Positions 4,844 through 47,219 of a stretch of DNA of 64,000 bases are shown here, piece after piece. The stretch is from Coleofasciculus sp. FACHB-1120 (GTDB taxonomy: Bacteria > Cyanobacteriota > Cyanobacteriia > Cyanobacteriales > FACHB-T130). Below the pieces are notes generated by a model, which was not told the DNA's origin, ran no database searches, and saw only the letters and a program-made list of their open reading frames with translations. Location of the stretch: contig NZ_JACJTV010000030.1 of the NCBI RefSeq assembly GCF_014698845.1, forward strand, positions 1-64,000, given 5' to 3'. Every line of letters starts with the position of its first letter. The stretch's first letter is position 1. Both the position numbers and the translations under genes were made by a program.

Positions 4844-5026
4844 CGCGCTCCCTCCACGCTTTCACCTTACTGGCGGCAACCTTTTGCAAAGAAATGTTGC
4901 AAGGGCTACTTTTACTATGATGCAAAATTTCCGGAAAAAGATGCGATCGCTATGTGACGCTAAAAACCCATACTTGCGGTAGAGTTCTGAATAAAAGACC
5001 CTTGGCTTAGCAACAAGCACGACCTG

Positions 5027-6034
5027 ATGAAAGCAGTTTTGATGACAGCATCTGGCGCACCGGAAGTCTTGCAACTTCAGGAAGTCCCAAACCCGACGAT
5101 TGAACAAGACACAGAAATCCTAGTCCGTCTCCGGGCGGCGGGAATTAACCCAATTGACACTAAATTGCGGCAGCGGGGCACCTTCTATCCAGACCAAATG
5201 CCCGCTATTTTAGGCTGTGATGGCGCGGGGGTCGTGGAAGCAATCGGTTCTGGCGTCCAGCGGTTTAAGGTTGGCAATGAAGTGTATTTCTGTGCAGGTG
5301 GACTGGGGACAAAGCTGGGAAACTATGCTCAAATGGCGGTTGTCGATGAGCGATTTGTCGCCAAGAAACCCGCCTCTATAAGCTTTGCAGAAGCCGCCGC
5401 TGCCCCTCTAGTTCTGATTACTGCTTGGGAAGCCCTATTTGAACGGGGGCGACTGGAACCCAAGGAACGGGTGCTGATTCACGCGGGTGCTGGCGGTGTC
5501 GGTCACGTCGCCATTCAACTGGCGAAGCTGAAAGGTGCGGAAGTTTGTACCACGGTGAGTTCTCAGGACAAGGCTGATTTTGTCCGCGAATTGGGTGCCG
5601 ATGAGGTAATTTTTTATCAGCAAACTGACTTTGTACAGGCGGTTCTAGATTGGACGGGAGGAGAGGGAGTAGACTTAGCCTTTGATACGGTAGGCGGGGA
5701 AACCTTCTATAAAACGTTCCCCGCCGTGCGGGTTTATAGCGATCTGGTGACGATTTTGGAGCCAGACCCCGCTTACTCTAATTGGAAGATTGCGCGATCG
5801 CGCAATCTCCGGATTAGCTTTGAATTGATGCTAACGCCTGCATTGCAAGGACTCCTGGAAGCTCAACAGCATCACGCAGAAATTTTAGAACAGTGTGCAA
5901 CCTGGATTGATGAAGGTTCGCTGAAAATTCACCTGGCTAAAACTTTTCCCTTAGAAGCCGCCGCCGCTGCCCACCAACTGTTGGAAGCCGGATCGATTAC
6001 AGGTAAAATCGCCTTGGTAATCGAGGGTGAATAA
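5027..6034 (+). CDS. NADPH:quinone oxidoreductase / zinc-free MDR alcohol dehydrogenase family
   Basis: A 335-residue medium-chain dehydrogenase/reductase of the quinone-oxidoreductase branch. The N-terminal GroES-like catalytic domain (AAGINPIDTKLRQRG, ILGCDGAGVVEAIGSG) is followed by a Rossmann fold with the dinucleotide-binding motif HAGAGGVGHVAIQLAK near residue 155. The cysteine cluster of the structural zinc site of alcohol dehydrogenases is missing, as expected for this branch. The C-terminus KTFPLEAAAAAHQLLEAGS is the family's usual closing helix. The substrate is unknown; such enzymes reduce quinones or enones with NADPH. The stop codon is 14 bases from that of the convergent gene at 6048. 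A broken relative of this C-terminus occurs near 13900. Confidence 0.9.
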   Translation: MKAVLMTASGAPEVLQLQEVPNPTIEQDTEILVRLRAAGINPIDTKLRQRGTFYPDQMPAILGCDGAGVVEAIGSGVQRFKVGNEVYFCAGGLGTKLGNYAQMAVVDERFVAKKPASISFAEAAAAPLVLITAWEALFERGRLEPKERVLIHAGAGGVGHVAIQLAKLKGAEVCTTVSSQDKADFVRELGADEVIFYQQTDFVQAVLDWTGGEGVDLAFDTVGGETFYKTFPAVRVYSDLVTILEPDPAYSNWKIARSRNLRISFELMLTPALQGLLEAQQHHAEILEQCATWIDEGSLKIHLAKTFPLEAAAAAHQLLEAGSITGKIALVIEGE

Positions 6035-34765: not shown

Positions 34766-34880
34766 GACTTACGCACTGAACATTTGAAGCCTAGATACCC
34801 CCTAACCCCCCGATAAATTGGCAGGAATTGGAAAAATCCTCCTTTTTAAGGGGGATGCAAGGGGGATTTCTGCATAAGTC
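34766..34880. repeat. MITE-like element B (GACTTACGCA ends, 115 bp)
   Basis: GACTTACGCA at the left and TGCATAAGTC at the right are inverted repeats with one mismatch. Between them are C-rich and G-rich runs (CCCCCTAACCCCCC, AAGGGGGATGCAAGGGGGAT), typical of a common cyanobacterial intergenic element. It overlaps the last 12 codons of the giant gene at 34846, providing its stop. Confidence 0.75.
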
Positions 34881-37800
34881 TAAGATCCTGCGGTAAGCGA
34901 TTGATGGCGGTTTGGGCACGAACGCTCAATACGCGAGGGTCAATTTGCTGCTGTAAGCTTTCAAATAGCTCTGCGGCACGCTGATGTTCTCCCAAAGTCA
35001 GTTTCCCCCGAATTAATGCAGCCCCAGCTAGGGCAATTTCACTGGGATGATCCACAATTTGCGCGGCATGAAGTGCTTCTTGAGCGCGGGCGATCGCTAA
35101 TTCAACGCGACCCCTTTCCAGATCCCTCCCTGCTGCAAAGCTCAGGGTATAAGCTAGCATTCGGTTCGCATCGATCTGGCGCAGGGTGGATAATGCTGGC
35201 TCAAGTGCTTCTTCAGCACCGATTTCTCCGATAACATAACGGGCGAGCGAACTCAGGGCAACGGCGAATGGCCCTTCGCTGCCTTCACCACTAATTTTTG
35301 TGGCAACTGCTGCCAATTCCTCACAATAAGCGATCGCATCTCTCGGATTGCCCGCTTCCAACTCGGTCATTGCCAAATAAGTCAAACAAGCAGACTCTCG
35401 CCAGCGATCCTGTTCGGCTTGCGCCATTCGCCATGCTTGTTCCAAAAGAGAACGCGCTGCGGGGAAATCAGCCGCATGACGGCGCACGCATCCCAATCCA
35501 CAAGGAATATCGATAATTTCTAGCCCAACTCTCGCTGCAAGCGGCTGTGCTTCTAGCAACAGCGCCTCGGCACGGGGCATCTCGCGTTCGGTTTCGGCAA
35601 GGCACCAACCGCTGTGAGCCAGCATTCGGGCGGTAGTCGCCGGACTTGCCAATCGTCCTCGTTCCACGGCTTGGAGCGAGTGTTCGCGGACGCCCATGAG
35701 GTTTCCGCGATCGTAGTTCAGCACGATTAAGGCTTCTAGAGCGATCGCTTCTTCATCCTTCAAACCAAGGGCGCTAGCTTCGGCAATCAGTTGATGCAGG
35801 TTGTTTTCAAGTTGGGAAATTTGATTTCTGCTCACTCCTGCCAGAACATAAACTTTTAGCAGTCCGATGTGAAGCCGAACCCGTAAAGTCTTCTCAAGGT
35901 TCTGGCAATGCTGGATTCCCCGTTGAGCCAGTTCTGATGCTTCTGAGTAAGCGAACTGGCGCAAGCAACGTTCGGCGGCTGCTTGGAAAGCTGAGGCTGC
36001 TAAGGAATCATGACCCCCCAATGACGCATGATGCGCGACTTCGCTGGCTTTGGCGTTATCAGGGACCGAGAGACGATTCAAAGCCTGGGCAATTTGCAAA
36101 TGCACCAGGCGGCGACGGGGTTCTGACAACTGGTGATAAGCGACTTTCCGCACAACATCATGAGCAAAGTCATAGCCAGTTTCGTTATTTAATAAAGTTC
36201 CTGGATGGATAATCCCCTGCCGCTCCAGTTCTTCCACGGCTAAAAGTAATTTAGAGAGCGGATAGTCGGCAACCCGTGCCACGATTGTCGGATTGAAACT
36301 TCGTCCCAATGCAGCTGCCCAAGGTAAAAGTTCTCGCGCCGGTTCGTCGAGTTGCCGCAATCGGTCTTGAATCAAGGCTTCCAGATTGTCGGAGTAAGCC
36401 GTGTCATGCTGGGCTAGGGCACGAGCCACTTCTAGAGCGAATAGGGGATTCCCGCCACTATCCACAAAGACGCGGTTGCCATCAACATCGATATTCACCG
36501 AGCGAGTCAGCTGAACCACTTGCGCTTGATTTAATAGTGGCAGTGAGATGGTTTGCACCCGCTCCTCCCGCCGTAGCGCTTGCACCAGCTTACACACAGG
36601 CACATTATTTGATAACTCGCGTTGACGAGCAGAGAGGGCAAACCGAACGGAGGAATGACCCAGCAGGCGGATTGCATAATGCAGGAGTGCCGTAGATGCC
36701 TCGTCCAGCCACTGAATGTCATCCAGGATGATGATGGTTTGTTTGCCATTGCTCGAAAGTTGGGAGAGTAGGTTGACTACCGCATCGAATAGCTGAGAGC
36801 GATCGCCCGGATCTCTTCTTCCCTCCATTTCCGGAAATAGGGAACTCAGTTCTGCTGGCAATTGCGATCCTGAATCACGAGCGATCGCCCGCAGTGCATC
36901 AATCCAGACTCCATACGGTCGCAGCATTTCCGCCTCAAACCCGCGTCCCCAAACGACGCAACCGTTACTCGTGACAACGGAAGCCAGTTCTTCCAGCAGG
37001 CGCGTCTTCCCAATTCCCGATTCGCCAACCAGTAAGAGGATTTCTGAAACGACCATCCGGGTATCGGATGCCATCCAATTACAGATTGTCGCCCATTCCC
37101 GCTCTCGCCCGATTAGGGGAGCCAAGAATCGGGGCTGATTCTCTCCCCGGCTCCCAGTTTCCACTGCCCCCAGCGCCTTCAATGCAGCCTTTTGGGCGTC
37201 TGTTAATCCGGTGACTCCGGTGATATTCATTCCCTCATAGGGTCGATCTGCCCTTAAGGTTTTTACACACTCACCCGTCTGCACATCCCAAAGCTTAATG
37301 GTTTCATCCTGGCTGCCACTCGCGACCCTGCGGCTATCAAGGCTGAAGATTACTGACCAGACTAAATTGGTGTGTCCCTGCAAGGTATGAAGACAAGAAC
37401 CGTTTTGGACATCCCAAAGCTTTACTGTCTGGTCGCTACTCGCACTGGCAAGGATTTGACCATCTGGACTAAAGGCAACTGACCAAACTCGGCTGGTGTG
37501 TCCTGCCAAGGTGCGTCGGCACTCTCCTGTCCGCACGTCCCATAACTTAATACTGTGGTCGCCACTTCCACTCGCCAAGGTTTGACCATCTGGGCTAAAG
37601 ACAACTGACCAAACCCAATTGGTATGTCCCTGGAATGTCTGAGCGCATTGTCCCGTCTGGACATCCCAAAGTTTCACTGTTTGGTCGTAACTGCCACTCG
37701 CCAGAGTATGACCATCCGGGCTAAAAGCGATCGCGCAAACCCAACTGGCGTGTCCCTGCAAGGTGCGTTGGCAAAGCCCTGTGTCAATATTCCAAAGCTT

Positions 37801-40800
37801 CACCGTCTGATCATCACTACCACTGGCAAGGGTTCGACCATCGGGGCTGAAGGCAACTGACCAAATCCCGCAAGTATGCTCTTGCAAGGTTTGGCGGCAA
37901 CGTCCGGTGTCAAGATCCCAAAGCTTCACCATTTGGTCGCCACTCCCACTGGCGAGAGTCTGACCGTCTGGGCTAAAGGCAACAGCAGAAACTGAGCTGA
38001 TGTGACCTTGCAAGGTTTGAACGCATTTCCCCGTACCGAGATCCCACAATTTAACGGTGCGATCGTCGTTCCCACTTGCCAAGATGCGACCATCTGGACT
38101 CAACGCCAGCGATCGCACTCGGTTCGCATAACCCTGTAAGGTTCTGCGACATTGACCCGTGGGAGCGTGCCACAGCTTCACAGTATGGTCGCCACTACCG
38201 CTTGCCAGGATTTCTCCATCCGGGCTGAATGCCACCGACCGCACCCAATTTTGGTGCCCCCATAATGTTTGGTAGCATTCCCCAGTCCGAACTCGCCACA
38301 GCTTCACGCTGCGGTCTTCGCTGCCACTCGCTACCGTTTGACCATCCGGGCTGAAAGAAAGCGATCGCACCCAATTTCCATGCCCTTTGAGGGTTCGGCG
38401 GCATTCACCCGTCTTAAAATTCCAAAGTTTAATTGTATGGTCGCTACTACTGCTGGCTAAGGTTTGACCATCCGGGCTAAAGGCGACTGACCAGACTCGC
38501 TCAGCGTGTCCTTGTAGTGTTTGATAACATTGACTGGTTTTAAGATCCCACAGCTTGATGATTCGATCGTCGCTGCCAGTCGCCAGGGTTTTTCCGTCGG
38601 GGCTAAACGCTACCGACCGTACCCAATTTTCGTGACCCTGAAGCGTTTGGCAGCACTGTCCTGACTGGACATCCCACAACTTGACCGTTCGATCCTCACT
38701 CCCGCTGGCTAGGGTTTGACCATCCGGACTAAAAGCGACTGACCAGACTTGGTGGGCGTGTTCTTGCAAAGTCTGGAGGCATTGTCCTGTCTTGAGATCC
38801 CACAGTTTAATCGTTTTATCATCGCTACCACTCGCCAGGATATTACCTTGAGGACAAAAAGCGACCGACCAAACCCAATTGGTATGTCCCTGGCAGGTCA
38901 GTAAATTTTTCCCATCTGCTACTCTCCACACCCGCACCTCGCGGTTCGTATCGCCGGTTGCCAGAAGTTCTCCGTCTGGACTAAAAGCAACGGCGAGGGC
39001 GAAGCTCAAGGGTTCGGTAAACACCGTTTTGGACAGGTCGGCATGAGCAAGATTGACCTGATGTAAATTCACTTCTCGTAAATCAGCCTGCCAGAGGGTG
39101 AGATGAGAGAAGTCATAACCTGTTAAGTCTTTTTGCAATTGAACCAGCAGATTGAGGATATTGCCACCTGCATATCCGGGTTGTCGCGACCATTCATTTC
39201 GCAGTTTTGAAAGCAGTTGAGTCAGCTGTTGCTCAACGTTGTATTGCCCGTACAGTCGGGTAATTAAAGTGTTTAAAACGGGTTTAACAATTTGTTGAAT
39301 CTGAATTTCTCGGATATAGTCTTTGCCTTGAGGCTTGAGCAATGCGTGGCTGTGCAGGATGGGAATTGGAAGGGATGTCTGGTTTTCTGCTCCCAATTCT
39401 TGAATTTTTTCACAAACTTGGGCAATCAATCGCTCAGTGATGTACTCCATCACGACAGGTTGCTGAGTATAGCTGCCCGACTGCTTTTCAATTAGCGATC
39501 GCCAACTGAGAGAACCCAATGCTTCTACTAGGTCTGCACGAGCAACGCTGGGAACGATATCATCTGCCAATTCCGAGAAAGTTGTCCATTCTCGATTAAT
39601 GGCAAGCCAAAACATAATTGTTTTTTCTAAGGGAGAGCAACGCTGACACTGCTGGTCTAGCAGTCTGTGAATCCCATTAAAAATCGTGGTGTTTTGAGCG
39701 AGAAAATCTTGAATCTTGCCATCGAAAACATCTTGAATGGAAGTGGCAACAATCTTTAACGCCAAAGGATTACAGCCGTAGAACTCACACAAATGCTGTT
39801 GCTGTGCTTCAGTTCCAATCAATCCTTTTGCTTGAATTAATGCTTGAGCTGCCTCTGGTGAACCGCTTAGTTGCAAGGTTCGCACAGGTAACGGTGAATT
39901 CCTATCAACTACGCCTTCTAAGATGCCCACCTCAGTAGGCTTCTCCCGACTGGTCAGCACCAGGCAACTTTGATGGGCAGTTTCTGCGATCGCGCGTAGC
40001 AGTTCCTCGTACCCTTCATAGCCATGACGATATTGCCCCGGACAACTCACCTGAAAAAGGGTTTCTGCATTGTCCAAAATTATCAGGCAACGAGAACTCC
40101 GCAGCCAATATATCAGTCGTTCAATTCCACCTCCTGTCTCCTGTTGCTCTGATAGAAAAGAGATTAAGTCGTGAAAAAGAGTCTCTAACGTGGGAGCATT
40201 CCGTAGCGATCGCCAAATTACACACTCAAACTCTCCTTGGATTTCCTGCGCTAGTTTTGCAGACAAGGCAGTTTTCCCAATTCCACCCATGCCTAATAAG
40301 ACAACTAGCCGACAGCGATTCTGTAAAATGCACTGCTTGAGCGTGTTTAGCTCCTCTGTCCTTCCGTAAAACAGGGTAACATCGTTGATTTCGCCCCAGT
40401 CGCAACGAGGTTGCGGGTCATTTTGAGTGGGTGTATTTAATTCAGAATTTATCTCCAGTAACTCAGAACTCTTGTCTGGACTTCTAATCCCTTCAGCATC
40501 TTCATTGATTAAGCGATCGTAGAGATCGCGGGTAATCGGGCTGGGATCGATTCCTAACTCTTCCCGTAAAAGCGTCATGCAGCGGTGGTAGATTCGCAAG
40601 GCACTCGCGCGATCGCCATTCAGTGCGTGCAGTTGCATCAAGTCCCCATAAGTTGCTTCGTTGAGCGCGTCAACTTCTAACAACTGCTGGGCATAGCGCA
40701 TCGCCGTCCGGATATCTCGTTGCTCCTTTAACAGGCGAACCAACCACTCCAATCCTTGGATAAAAATTTGTCGCAGTCGTTCCTGTTCCGGAAAAATCCA

Positions 40801-41247
40801 TTCGTCGTAACAGTTGGGCAGTAAATCCCCCTGATAGAGGGCTACCGCCTGCTCTAACAACGTTCGGACGGTTTTCTGGTCAGCCGCTCGTTCTGCCTCC
40901 TCCGCTTGAGCAACCACCCGCTCAAACTCTGCAACATCCAACGTAAAAGGTGCATCTGAGCGCCACTGTAGCGTTTTTGTATCCACTTCAATGAATCGAT
41001 CCGCGTCCGGCAAAACCCGCCGTAAGTGGTGCAGTTCTCTTCTCAGGTTCGTTCGGGCTTGCTCGTCCGTGGAGTCAGCCCAAAACAGGGAAGCTAGACG
41101 CTGACGAGGCTGAGGCGTGCCGCTGTGCAGCACCAGATATGCCAGCAACGATTGCGATCGCTCCCCGCTCACGTCTGTCAGCGGCCTTTCGCCATAAGTT
41201 AGGCGAAAGCCACCCAGCAACAATATCTGTAAAGTAGGCAGCATCAT
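34846..41247 (-). CDS. Giant BTAD / NB-ARC / WD40 x14 / ATPase / TPR-like regulator
   Basis: 2,133 residues. Residues 1-250 are a winged helix plus BTAD helical domain as in SARP/AfsR regulators ([40 protein letters not shown]). Residues 290-640 are an NB-ARC STAND ATPase with P-loop GMGGIGKTA (319-327) and [12 protein letters not shown] short pentapeptide bridge (about 713-745) leads to 14 WD40 repeats (about 748-1335), enough for two seven-blade propellers. The WD40 part closes with [15 protein letters not shown], a tail usual in cyanobacterial NB-ARC-WD40 proteins. Then [11 protein letters not shown], a second P-loop GESGIGKTR (about 1,410) and [15 protein letters not shown] mark an AAA_16-type ATPase, followed by some 600 residues of TPR-like helices. 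The last dozen residues come from repeat element B. Probably a signal-sensing transcription regulator; the ligand is unknown. Confidence 0.85.
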
Positions 41248-42555: not shown

Positions 42556-43806
42556 TTAGTAATTTTGACCAATCCTTTGCTGCCAATCACTTTTCAATAT
42601 GCCGTATTGTTCGATGTCTTCAAAGGTTTCTCCTTTCCGTAAATGTTGGCGGAGACATCCCTCATACTGCATCCCCAGTTTTTGCATGACTCGTCCCGAA
42701 GCTGGATTGCGCGAAAAGTGAGCCGCATGAATGCGGTGCAATTTAAGCACCTCGAAGCCGTATTGCAGTAGAGCTTTTGCTGCTTCAGTACAGTAGCCTT
42801 GTCCCCAGTAGGGCTTTCCAATCCAGTAACTGATCTCCGCATTGTTCTGTTTGGCATTAATCATCAGATTAACCGTCCCACAGAGTTCTCCAGTTTCCTG
42901 GAGTGCGATCGCAAAGTAAACTGCTTTGTTTTCCTTAAATGCTGCCGAATGAGCCTTAATCCACGCTTGAGCTATCCCATCTTCGTAAGGATGAGGAATT
43001 AGTGTTGTATCAGCAATTTCGCGCTCGCTGGCTAGGCGTTGCACATTCGGAGCATCTGCCAAGGTGAAAGGACGGAGCGTTAACCGTTGTGTTTGCAGCG
43101 TGGGTGGTTGTAGCTCTGACTCCGACTCAGCAGAACGAGATCCACCAAACACGGCAAAGCTGTAATGCTTATACCAGCAGTCTACGTTCTGAAAACCGGC
43201 TGCTTCCAGCCATTGCAGTTGAGCGTCGAGAGGTGCTAGACGATCGTAGGTCATCCGATGTTGAGCGGCTCGCAGATGCTCGTCTGAGATCCCGCAATCG
43301 CGCACGGTATTGAGCCATTGTTGTTGATAAAATTGCTCCAGTTGGGGTGTTCTGCCTAAAACTTGATCGGCGTTGACAAACATCCCTCCAGGTTTGAGCG
43401 CATCGTAAATCCGTTGATAAAGATGCTGCTTCTCTGAATCAGACAGATGATGAATCGATAAGCCGGAGATAATCCGGTCATAGGAATCGCTCAAATCTGT
43501 CTTAACGTAGTCTCCAATCCATATTTTGGGAGATTTGCCCATCTGCTGGAATCGAGCCTTTGCTTGCTCTAACATCTCAGTCGCGAGATCCAGTAGGGTA
43601 AATTCAGCATACGGAAACATTGCCTGAACCATGCCTGAGTAAAGTCCCGTCCCTGCACCTAAATCGAGAACGTTTAGGGATGCTGTGCGGTCAAATGGGA
43701 TAACCTGAATGGCTGTTTGGTAAAAGTCATCAAAACAGGGAATTAGGGTACGTCGGAGCTTGTCGTACTCAGTTGCTGCTGTGTTAAATGCCTGTTGAAT
43801 ACTCAT
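42556..43806 (-). CDS. Fused SAM methyltransferase and GNAT acetyltransferase
   Basis: A 416-residue two-domain protein. Residues 1-215 are a class I methyltransferase with the SAM loop LNVLDLGAGTGLYSG (near 45-58), then YAEFTLLDLATEML and DRIISGLSIHHLSDSEK. After a short linker, residues 232-416 are a RimJ/RimL-type GNAT acetyltransferase (LQTQRLTLRPFTLADAPNVQ, ISYWIGKPYWGQGYCTEAAK, NPASGRVMQKLGMQYEG). Both active regions look complete. RimJ/RimL GNATs acetylate protein N-termini or small amines. The fusion suggests one substrate is both methylated and acetylated, or a coupled toxin/antibiotic-type modification; this is inference. It is followed by the synthase gene. Confidence 0.85.
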   Translation of the reverse strand: MSIQQAFNTAATEYDKLRRTLIPCFDDFYQTAIQVIPFDRTASLNVLDLGAGTGLYSGMVQAMFPYAEFTLLDLATEMLEQAKARFQQMGKSPKIWIGDYVKTDLSDSYDRIISGLSIHHLSDSEKQHLYQRIYDALKPGGMFVNADQVLGRTPQLEQFYQQQWLNTVRDCGISDEHLRAAQHRMTYDRLAPLDAQLQWLEAAGFQNVDCWYKHYSFAVFGGSRSAESESELQPPTLQTQRLTLRPFTLADAPNVQRLASEREIADTTLIPHPYEDGIAQAWIKAHSAAFKENKAVYFAIALQETGELCGTVNLMINAKQNNAEISYWIGKPYWGQGYCTEAAKALLQYGFEVLKLHRIHAAHFSRNPASGRVMQKLGMQYEGCLRQHLRKGETFEDIEQYGILKSDWQQRIGQNY

Positions 43807-45635: not shown

Positions 45636-45807
45636 TCATTCAGAGGATTTTGCCAAGGGTTTCCTAGCGACAAACAAATAGTTTTGACAGACTACAGAGA
45701 AAGGATATGCCAAAATGTCGTCTAGAAAATCCCAACTCCATGCCAGCGGTGGGAAATTTGCGATCGCTTTTGGAAATGCGCCCCAGATATTTCTAGGTAG
45801 AAAACCA
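45636..45807 (-). pseudogene. C-terminal fragment of the IS1-split methyltransferase
   Basis: Read on the minus strand from the IS1 boundary, the frame continues the interrupted methyltransferase: LPRNIWGAFPKAIANFPP, then PFSVVCQNYLFVARKP, ending at TGA 45636-45638. Joining 47219-46589 to 45799-45636, that is removing IS1 and one 8-bp duplication, gives an uninterrupted frame of 264 codons plus stop. The strand ending in QNYLFVARKP is the usual last beta-strand of this methyltransferase fold. Confidence 0.88.
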
Positions 45808-45858
45808 GGTAGTCCTAAAGATGTAAGGATAAGAAGGTAGAGTTACTGCTGTTGTTCG

Positions 45859-46170
45859 ATGTCCAATCCCCATCCTACTTGTCCTGCTTGTGAGTCTACT
45901 CATACCGTGAAAAATGGGAAAATTCACAACGGCAAACAGAACTTCAAGTGCCGTGAGTGTGGCAGACAATTTGTGCAAGACCCGCAGAACAAGATCATTG
46001 ACCAAACTACTAAAACCCTGATTGACAAACTGCTGTTGGAGAAGATTCCGTTAGCTGGAATTGCTAGAGTGACGGGTGTTTCAGAACCCTGGCTCCAGAG
46101 CTATGTCAATGGGAAATACGAAGCGATTCCCCGACAAGTCGAGGTATCGGCTAAAAAAAGGGGCGCTTGA
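45859..46170 (+). CDS. insA: IS1 InsA-like protein
   Basis: A 103-residue N-terminal half of IS1 transposase. The zinc finger is visible as CPACESTHTVKNGK, then KCRECGRQF, followed by a helix-turn-helix region (KIPLAGIARVTGVSEPWLQSY). A run of seven A residues (46153-46159) shortly before its stop is the expected site for -1 ribosomal frameshifting into insB, which would make the InsAB transposase. The stop overlaps the insB frame. Confidence 0.88.
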   Translation: MSNPHPTCPACESTHTVKNGKIHNGKQNFKCRECGRQFVQDPQNKIIDQTTKTLIDKLLLEKIPLAGIARVTGVSEPWLQSYVNGKYEAIPRQVEVSAKKRGA

Positions 46171-46581
46171 CGATTCAATGCGACGAGATGTGGTCATTTG
46201 TGGCTAATAAGGGCAACAAGCAATGGATTTGGTTAGCATTAGATGTCAATACCCGAGAAATTGTCGGCGTGTACGTCGGTGATCGCTCTCGTGAGGGTGC
46301 CCAAGGATTATGGGACAGCTTGCCAGGGGTGTATCGACAGTGTGCCGTCTCCTATACCGATTTCTGGTCTGCCTACAATGAGGTTTTCCCCAGCCAACGA
46401 CATTGCTAGTGTGGGCAAGGACAGTGGTCAAACAAGCTTAATTGAGCGCTTCAATTGCACCTTACGGCAGCGAGTATCCCGGTTAGTGAGAAAGACGTTG
46501 TCGTTTTCCAAGAAGTTAGAGAATCATGTTGGTGCAGTGTGGCACTTTGTCCACTACTACAATGCATCCTTACATCTTTAG
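46167..46581 (+). pseudogene. insB: IS1 InsB catalytic half, broken by a frameshift
   Basis: The first part (TIQCDEMWSFVANKGNKQW, then DRSREGAQGLWDSLPG and YTDFWSAYNEVFPSQRH) holds the first catalytic acids of the DDE domain, and stops at TAG 46407-46409. One base shifted, the frame continues ASVGKDSGQTSLIERFNCT, then LRQRVSRLVRKTLSFSKKLE, to the right inverted repeat. A single-base gain near 46404 separates them, so this copy cannot make full transposase unless a second slippage occurs. It could still be moved in trans. Confidence 0.85.
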
Positions 46582-46583
46582 GA

Positions 46584-47219
46584 CTACCGAAAACCATAAC
46601 GCTGGACTTCTAGAACCTCAAATCCGGTTTCTTGGCAAAGCGTTTTGATTGACTGGCGAGTATAACGATATTGATGATGGTATTTGTGGGGCAAGCGGGA
46701 AGCGATCGCTTCAATCAGACTAAACTGATTCGGGAAATGGTAACAGATAAAAACGCCACCTGGTTGGAGCAAGCGGAATATTTCCCGTAAGCTGGTAATT
46801 TCATTTCCTCCAGTCTCTCTGACATGCTCTAAAACCCCTACAGAGACAATTGCCTTGAATTTATTATCTGGATAGGGAATGGCTGTTGGATCTTCAGCAC
46901 TCCCTTTTCTAAATTCATAAGTTGAGCTGTTAAGAGTTTCCCGAACACAAAAGTCCTCAAAGGCAAATCCAAAGGTTTTATAGCCAGCCTTTACTAAAAA
47001 GTAAGAAAAATGACCGTTCCCACAACCCCAATCTAATACTTCATTTCCGGTTGGAACATATTTAAAAAAAATTCTATATAGCCGAAGATATTGATTAGCG
47101 CTAACTAAGCTTCTAAATTGCCACAAACTACAATTGCTATTTTGCTCTTGAATCTTTATTAGCTGATGGGTGACGTTATTAATGTTTAAGTTACTCACAG
47201 TTGCTATTTTATTAGACAT
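46584..47219 (-). pseudogene. SAM-dependent methyltransferase interrupted by IS1 (N-terminal part)
   Basis: 211 residues remain of a class I methyltransferase. The SAM loop is EVLDWGCGNGHFSYFLVKAG near residues 60-79, then VSVGVLEHVRETGGNEI and EIFRLLQPGGVFICYHFPNQ. The frame ends at a TAG formed where IS1 begins, removing about 54 C-terminal residues now lying at 45636-45799. The core fold is nearly complete, so residual activity is possible, but the last strands are lost. The original substrate is unknown; cyanobacterial relatives often sit with sugar or lipid modification genes. Confidence 0.9.

Follow-up and report, generated by a model that had tools for sequence, protein, structure and literature searches.

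The window, the whole 64-kb stretch of Coleofasciculus sp. FACHB-1120 DNA that was analysed, carries on its minus strand a gene for a SAM-dependent methyltransferase (47219 to 45636) with a 781-bp insertion sequence inside it. The inserted DNA (45808-46588, plus strand) was assigned to the IS1 family by IS1 transposase models and by its inverted ends. Its left terminal inverted repeat (45808-45830, plus strand) and its right one (46566-46588, minus strand) agree with each other at all of their 23 bases, and exact copies of the 8-bp sequence GAAAACCA flank it on the left (45800-45807) and on the right (46589-46596). Members of the IS1 family have terminal inverted repeats of about 23 bp and mostly duplicate 8-9 bp of their target. 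The octamer GAAAACCA occurs three times on the plus strand and twice on the minus strand of the window, and the chance that two given octamers are identical is about 1.5e-5. Removal of the element together with one duplication joins 631 and 164 bases into a single 795-base frame for 264 residues and a stop codon, with RYGFLPRNIW spanning the joint. The first-pass annotation had described an IS1 at this position with perfect 23-bp ends and perfect 8-bp duplications, whose excision restores the reading frame, and each of these points was confirmed.

As it now stands, the methyltransferase gene is cut in two. The part with the start codon (46584-47219, minus strand) encodes 211 amino acids, of which 210 are native; the final Arg and the stop codon are supplied by the end of the element, within the right inverted repeat. 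The 3′ fragment (45636-45799, minus strand), separated from the start, encodes residues 211-264 and the stop when read with the last base of the duplication; residues 208-264 of the joined protein were matched in the genome itself at 98%. The remnant before the element has no stop or frameshift of its own, and the downstream part is also open. Upstream of the gene, on the same minus strand, are psaA and psaB, named from their proteins, and on its other side is a gene for an Omp85 protein identified by PF01103. Two further minus-strand genes of the window have unusual domain compositions. The first (34846-41247) encodes a protein of 2133 residues in which PF00400 marks 13 WD40 stretches; its matches extend to 63 Pfam families, the 25 of the 63 that were listed all being of WD40/beta-propeller type, and by eye it has a regulator-like N-terminus and ATPase-like parts flanking the repeats on both sides. 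In the second (42556-43806), which encodes 416 residues in one frame, a methyltransferase domain (PF13649) is fused with a GNAT acetyltransferase domain (PF13302).

The uninterrupted state of the site was found in nature. In the genome of a sister species of the same genus (G001), the sole sister genome compared, the orthologue is an uninterrupted protein of 264 residues that is 94% identical to the rejoined one and aligns with it gap-free across the joint. The DNA of this site aligned with the joined flanks of the window at 94% identity over 1418 columns, with 6 gap letters, of which 5 lie upstream and 1 downstream of the gene; the joint itself is free of gaps, and GAAAACCA occurs at the site as a single copy. 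The orthologue also stands between psaB and Omp85, as the gene in the window does. An empty site with one octamer and an intact 264-residue gene is what the first-pass annotation had named as support for its reading, and G001 provides it. A genome of the same family (G005) likewise has the whole gene behind psaB, encoding 266 residues at 75% identity, and the empty state is therefore the older one. The G005 locus (L018) and a locus listed for Trichocoleus sp. FACHB-40 (L074) are one gene by their contig coordinates. Downstream of the methyltransferase in L018 (2518-3664), at the place that Omp85 occupies in G001 and in the window's own genome (G000), two frames of 174 and 129 aa look by eye like pieces of a transposase, with no Pfam match at E 1e-5.

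Because the empty site is established in G001 and the same state is seen in G005, the insertion in the window is, on this comparison, later than the split from G001. The first-pass annotation had called it recent; that holds in the sense of being younger than this split, and no finer date came from any of the data. An attempt at dating by near-identical copies failed. The draft genome of G000 (79 contigs) contains one other full-length match at 70% identity and two fragments of the same subfamily, on contigs C23 (92% over positions 1-296 of the element) and C4 (96% over 599-781), and above about 70% identity it showed no further full-length copy, although repeats may have been collapsed at the ends of contigs. 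None closer than about 80% (in G005 and G242) was detected in 60 relatives, 6 members of the family and 388 genomes of the order, the last of these searched at E 1e-60 and scored for two candidates in each genome. At the C23 and C4 sites the flank match in G001 stops at the element or six bases short of it, which suggests that these copies also arrived after the split from G001, with their far sides unmatched and their empty sites unproven.

Nine near-full-length copies, that of the window included, were checked for flanking duplications. Exact 8-base duplications of mixed sequence were present in five of them (the window copy, L003, L046, L067 and L101), a run of T in one (L049), and no flanking duplication in three (L047, L050 and L118). 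For genome G049, eight full-length IS1 copies were listed, each about 70% identical to that of the window; the four examined (L047, L067, L101 and L118) are split evenly between exact 8-bp duplications and none. On contig C4 of G000 (L004, 1501-1944) two IS1 fragments lie a short distance apart; they belong to different subfamilies and are 96% and 74% identical to the window copy. The first of them begins at the position of the insB break described below, adjoining other DNA.

The coding parts of the element were then assigned. An insA-like frame of 103 aa with a zinc ribbon (45859-46170, plus strand) matched PF03811 with 26.5 bits against a cut-off of 26.1, and the IS1 transposase model NF033558 with E 3.3e-22 and 79.4 bits against a whole-protein cut-off of 100. 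insB is present in two plus-strand pieces that lie in different frames. The 5′ part (46167-46409) ends in a premature stop and covers positions 6-79 of the 131 of the IS1 DDE domain profile PF03400 (E 1.9e-8), and the 3′ part (46411-46581) covers positions 86-126 of the 131 (E 1.5e-8). Both matches are above the Pfam cut-off, and NF033558 matches all three parts of the element, each under its whole-protein cut-off. We take the 5′ part to hold the first two catalytic Asp residues and the IERFN stretch in the 3′ part to hold the catalytic Glu. The list of IS-bearing loci had 70 entries, some of them the window itself or one place covered more than once by overlapping stretches. Of these, 29 were aligned to the copy in the window, and counts are given for 28 because L004 starts at the break. 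A run of seven A followed by G (46153-46160, plus strand) precedes the overlap of insA and insB, which are in −1 phase to each other, and at least six A are found at this place in 26 of the 28 aligned relatives. A −1 frameshift at the A-run that fuses InsA and InsB is probable from this arrangement.

The insB frame is broken at 46397-46419 (plus strand), a stretch of 23 bases in the window copy and of 22 bases in 27 of the 28 aligned relatives. The exception, L048, has 23 bases as well, by other letters and with the frame still open. The loss of the insB frame near 46404, which the first-pass annotation had reported and proposed to check against other IS1 copies, is thus real in the sequence, and its absence from nearly all aligned relatives speaks for a change peculiar to this copy. 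Since the break precedes the IERFN stretch, a fused transposase would lack the putative catalytic glutamate, and we infer that the element is probably dead in cis, the extra insB base cutting the transposase short before this residue. It had further been claimed that IS1 lost insB after its insertion. This order is an assumption that nothing in the present data fixes; the C4 fragment, which starts just at the break, fits a break before landing as well as one after it.

An error of sequencing or assembly in insB, with an element that is in reality intact and active, is unlikely. The difference amounts to a single base, judged from a draft assembly of 79 contigs, which would fit such an error, but the break lies outside any homopolymer, and the relatives differ from this copy at the surrounding bases too. 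Moreover, the nearest kin of the element in the genome are the fragments on C23 and C4, and decay of this subfamily is not unusual there.

We turn to the protein product. Class I SAM-dependent methyltransferases have a SAM-binding motif of the DxGxGxG type, and the gene encodes DWGCGNG. The Pfam models Methyltransf_23 and Methyltransf_11 both matched it above their cut-offs (PF13489, E 2.6e-17), and no NCBIfam model reached its cut-off among the matches listed (25 of 27 for the G001 protein and 25 of 29 for the remnant). The intact orthologue is a member of the class I methyltransferases, and the remnant is a broken member. The 211-residue remnant keeps the SAM-binding core and the entire Methyltransf_23 match (residues 46-204); its sheet is incomplete, the stretch of the last strand being lost after residue 210 and intact in G001.

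The lost C-terminus was surveyed at 22 loci, 3 from a first search for relatives and 19 from a second, with two of the latter (L091 and L092) left out of the alignment and inspected separately. The last 54 residues are in frame at 17 of the 22 (16 of 21 if L018 and L074 are counted once). Sixteen loci reach the final strand in frame, showing LPRN, or a sequence close to it, and then QNY, QNF, TNY or a variant of these, and the seventeenth (L019) has an unbroken alignment as far as residue 260 with no stop. Among the other five, L090 has the C-terminal stretch with a shifted frame, L083 runs into a contig end, and the match of L092 is limited to residues 11-98, near the end of a contig labelled with 0.08-fold coverage. 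L089 has a genuine early stop on a contig labelled with 2.3-fold coverage, and in L091, from a Hormoscilla MAG, only residues 13-77 match (about 5001-5204) and stop codons follow them. L091 looks like a second, independent broken copy of the methyltransferase in cyanobacteria. The concern that homologues might generally lack the last 54 residues is thus not borne out, only L089 and L091 really ending early, and the C-terminal strand that had looked conserved proved to be so in its QNYxFVA stretch. In an alignment of 16 relatives (A2), 28 columns are invariant, including P213 and R214 in the lost C-terminus, and N215 and D238 are almost invariant.

A structure model of the relative L074 (mean pLDDT 89.2, pTM 0.88) ends with a strand at 202-209, helices at 215-219, 222-225 and 228-242, and a last strand at 251-257. 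In L074 numbering the break falls after residue 211, with strand 202-209 before it and the three helices and strand 251-257 after it, and the remnant would therefore be without the last strand. We presume from the usual sheet order of class I enzymes that the lost strand is placed between strands 5 and 6, and its loss should for that reason wreck the fold. A Foldseek search with this model returned 828 solved chains at E ≤0.001, the best with E 1.5e-13; the 50 listed of the 828 are mostly methyltransferases by title, with TM-scores by query length of 0.48-0.63.

The remnant is most likely non-functional, because the lost 54 residues hold the conserved LPRN...QNYxFVA stretch and, in the model of the relative, the last sheet strand. 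Some residual function of the truncated protein may persist, since the SAM-binding core and the Pfam match survive the truncation. The stronger proposal, that the 211-residue protein is still made and active and that the insertion was a nearly neutral trimming of a dispensable tail, is very unlikely; the retained core, the whole Methyltransf_23 match and the lack of any stop or frameshift of its own speak for it, but the part removed contains the conserved LPRN and QNYxFVA stretches and the final strand of the sheet. The changes that separate the two sister genomes also bear on this point. Sorted by side, the methyltransferase has 10 silent and 14 amino-acid-changing differences on the G000 side; for G001 the counts are 8 and 4, and a further 6 are assigned to neither; in the last 1041 bases of psaB, used as a control, the counts are 8 and 2 for G000 and 17 and 1 for G001, with 10 assigned to neither. 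The 14 versus 4 amino-acid changes differ from the pooled silent changes of both genes (18 versus 25) with a Fisher p of 0.013 in a comparison chosen post hoc, and from the methyltransferase's own silent changes with p 0.29, which is not significant. This hints that the gene may have been free to drift for some time, by a test picked post hoc, and relaxed selection on the remnant was for these reasons not adopted as a result.

What the enzyme acted on can be approached through its neighbours in 11 relatives, which gave a mixed picture. In two of them (L076 and L088) the gene lies among apparent sugar-nucleotide and glycosyltransferase genes, judged by eye from the starts of the proteins, and these glycan-like neighbours suggest that it may be a sugar methyltransferase.

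The element might instead act as a reversible switch, its precise excision restoring the gene in part of the population. We reject this as highly improbable, as we do its extension in which occupied and empty forms coexist and the transposase of another IS1, acting in trans, turns a surface-glycan methyltransferase on and off. Excision together with one duplication does give the exact frame, and the downstream part is still open, but the same restoration would follow for every insertion whose duplication is intact, the transposase of the element itself is broken, the draft genome offers no second full-length copy above about 70% (contig-end collapse allowed for), and its assembly has the occupied site only.

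The account that we hold with great confidence is that IS1 entered the methyltransferase gene after the split from G001, leaving a product that is most likely non-functional and an element that is probably dead. On this account an IS1-family element transposed, after that split, into codon 210/211 of the 264-codon gene and created the 8-bp target duplication. The reading frame now terminates one residue inside the element, with the loss of its last 54 residues including the final sheet strand, and one extra base in insB truncates the putative InsA-InsB fusion transposase ahead of the catalytic glutamate. The event is an ordinary one, in which a known element has gained a further copy inside a member of a known gene family, and it raises no new question. 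It is a clean case of a cyanobacterial gene lost to an insertion sequence, and a sister genome in which the site is naturally empty brackets it. For annotation it serves as a warning: the 211-residue methyltransferase is the product of a truncated gene, and the transposase is broken.

Compared with known class I enzymes, the gene matches both Methyltransf_23 and Methyltransf_11, and the model of its relative folds like solved methyltransferases, but it fits no NCBIfam model at cut-off among the matches listed. IS1 of Escherichia coli, in the excerpted account of PMC12428005, has 768 bp, a zinc finger, a DDE domain and a frameshift at A6C. The element of the window resembles it in length class, in the zinc ribbon of insA and in a DDE part of insB placed in −1 phase behind an A-run (PMC12428005, in excerpt), and the retention of this run in the relatives fits the frameshift known at A6C; it differs in belonging to a cyanobacterial subfamily, in having an A-run followed by GG rather than A6C, and in its broken insB. 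A second parallel is ISMae3 of Microcystis aeruginosa PCC 7806, which the excerpted source describes as an IS1-like element that interrupts or silences genes (PMC11448079). Both are IS1-like elements disrupting a cyanobacterial gene, a likeness drawn from the description and not from sequence. ISMae3 is reported in the same excerpts to have identical copies, five or six per genome, and transcription of its transposase (PMC11448079), whereas the genome of the window has one full-length copy of its element, with a broken transposase.
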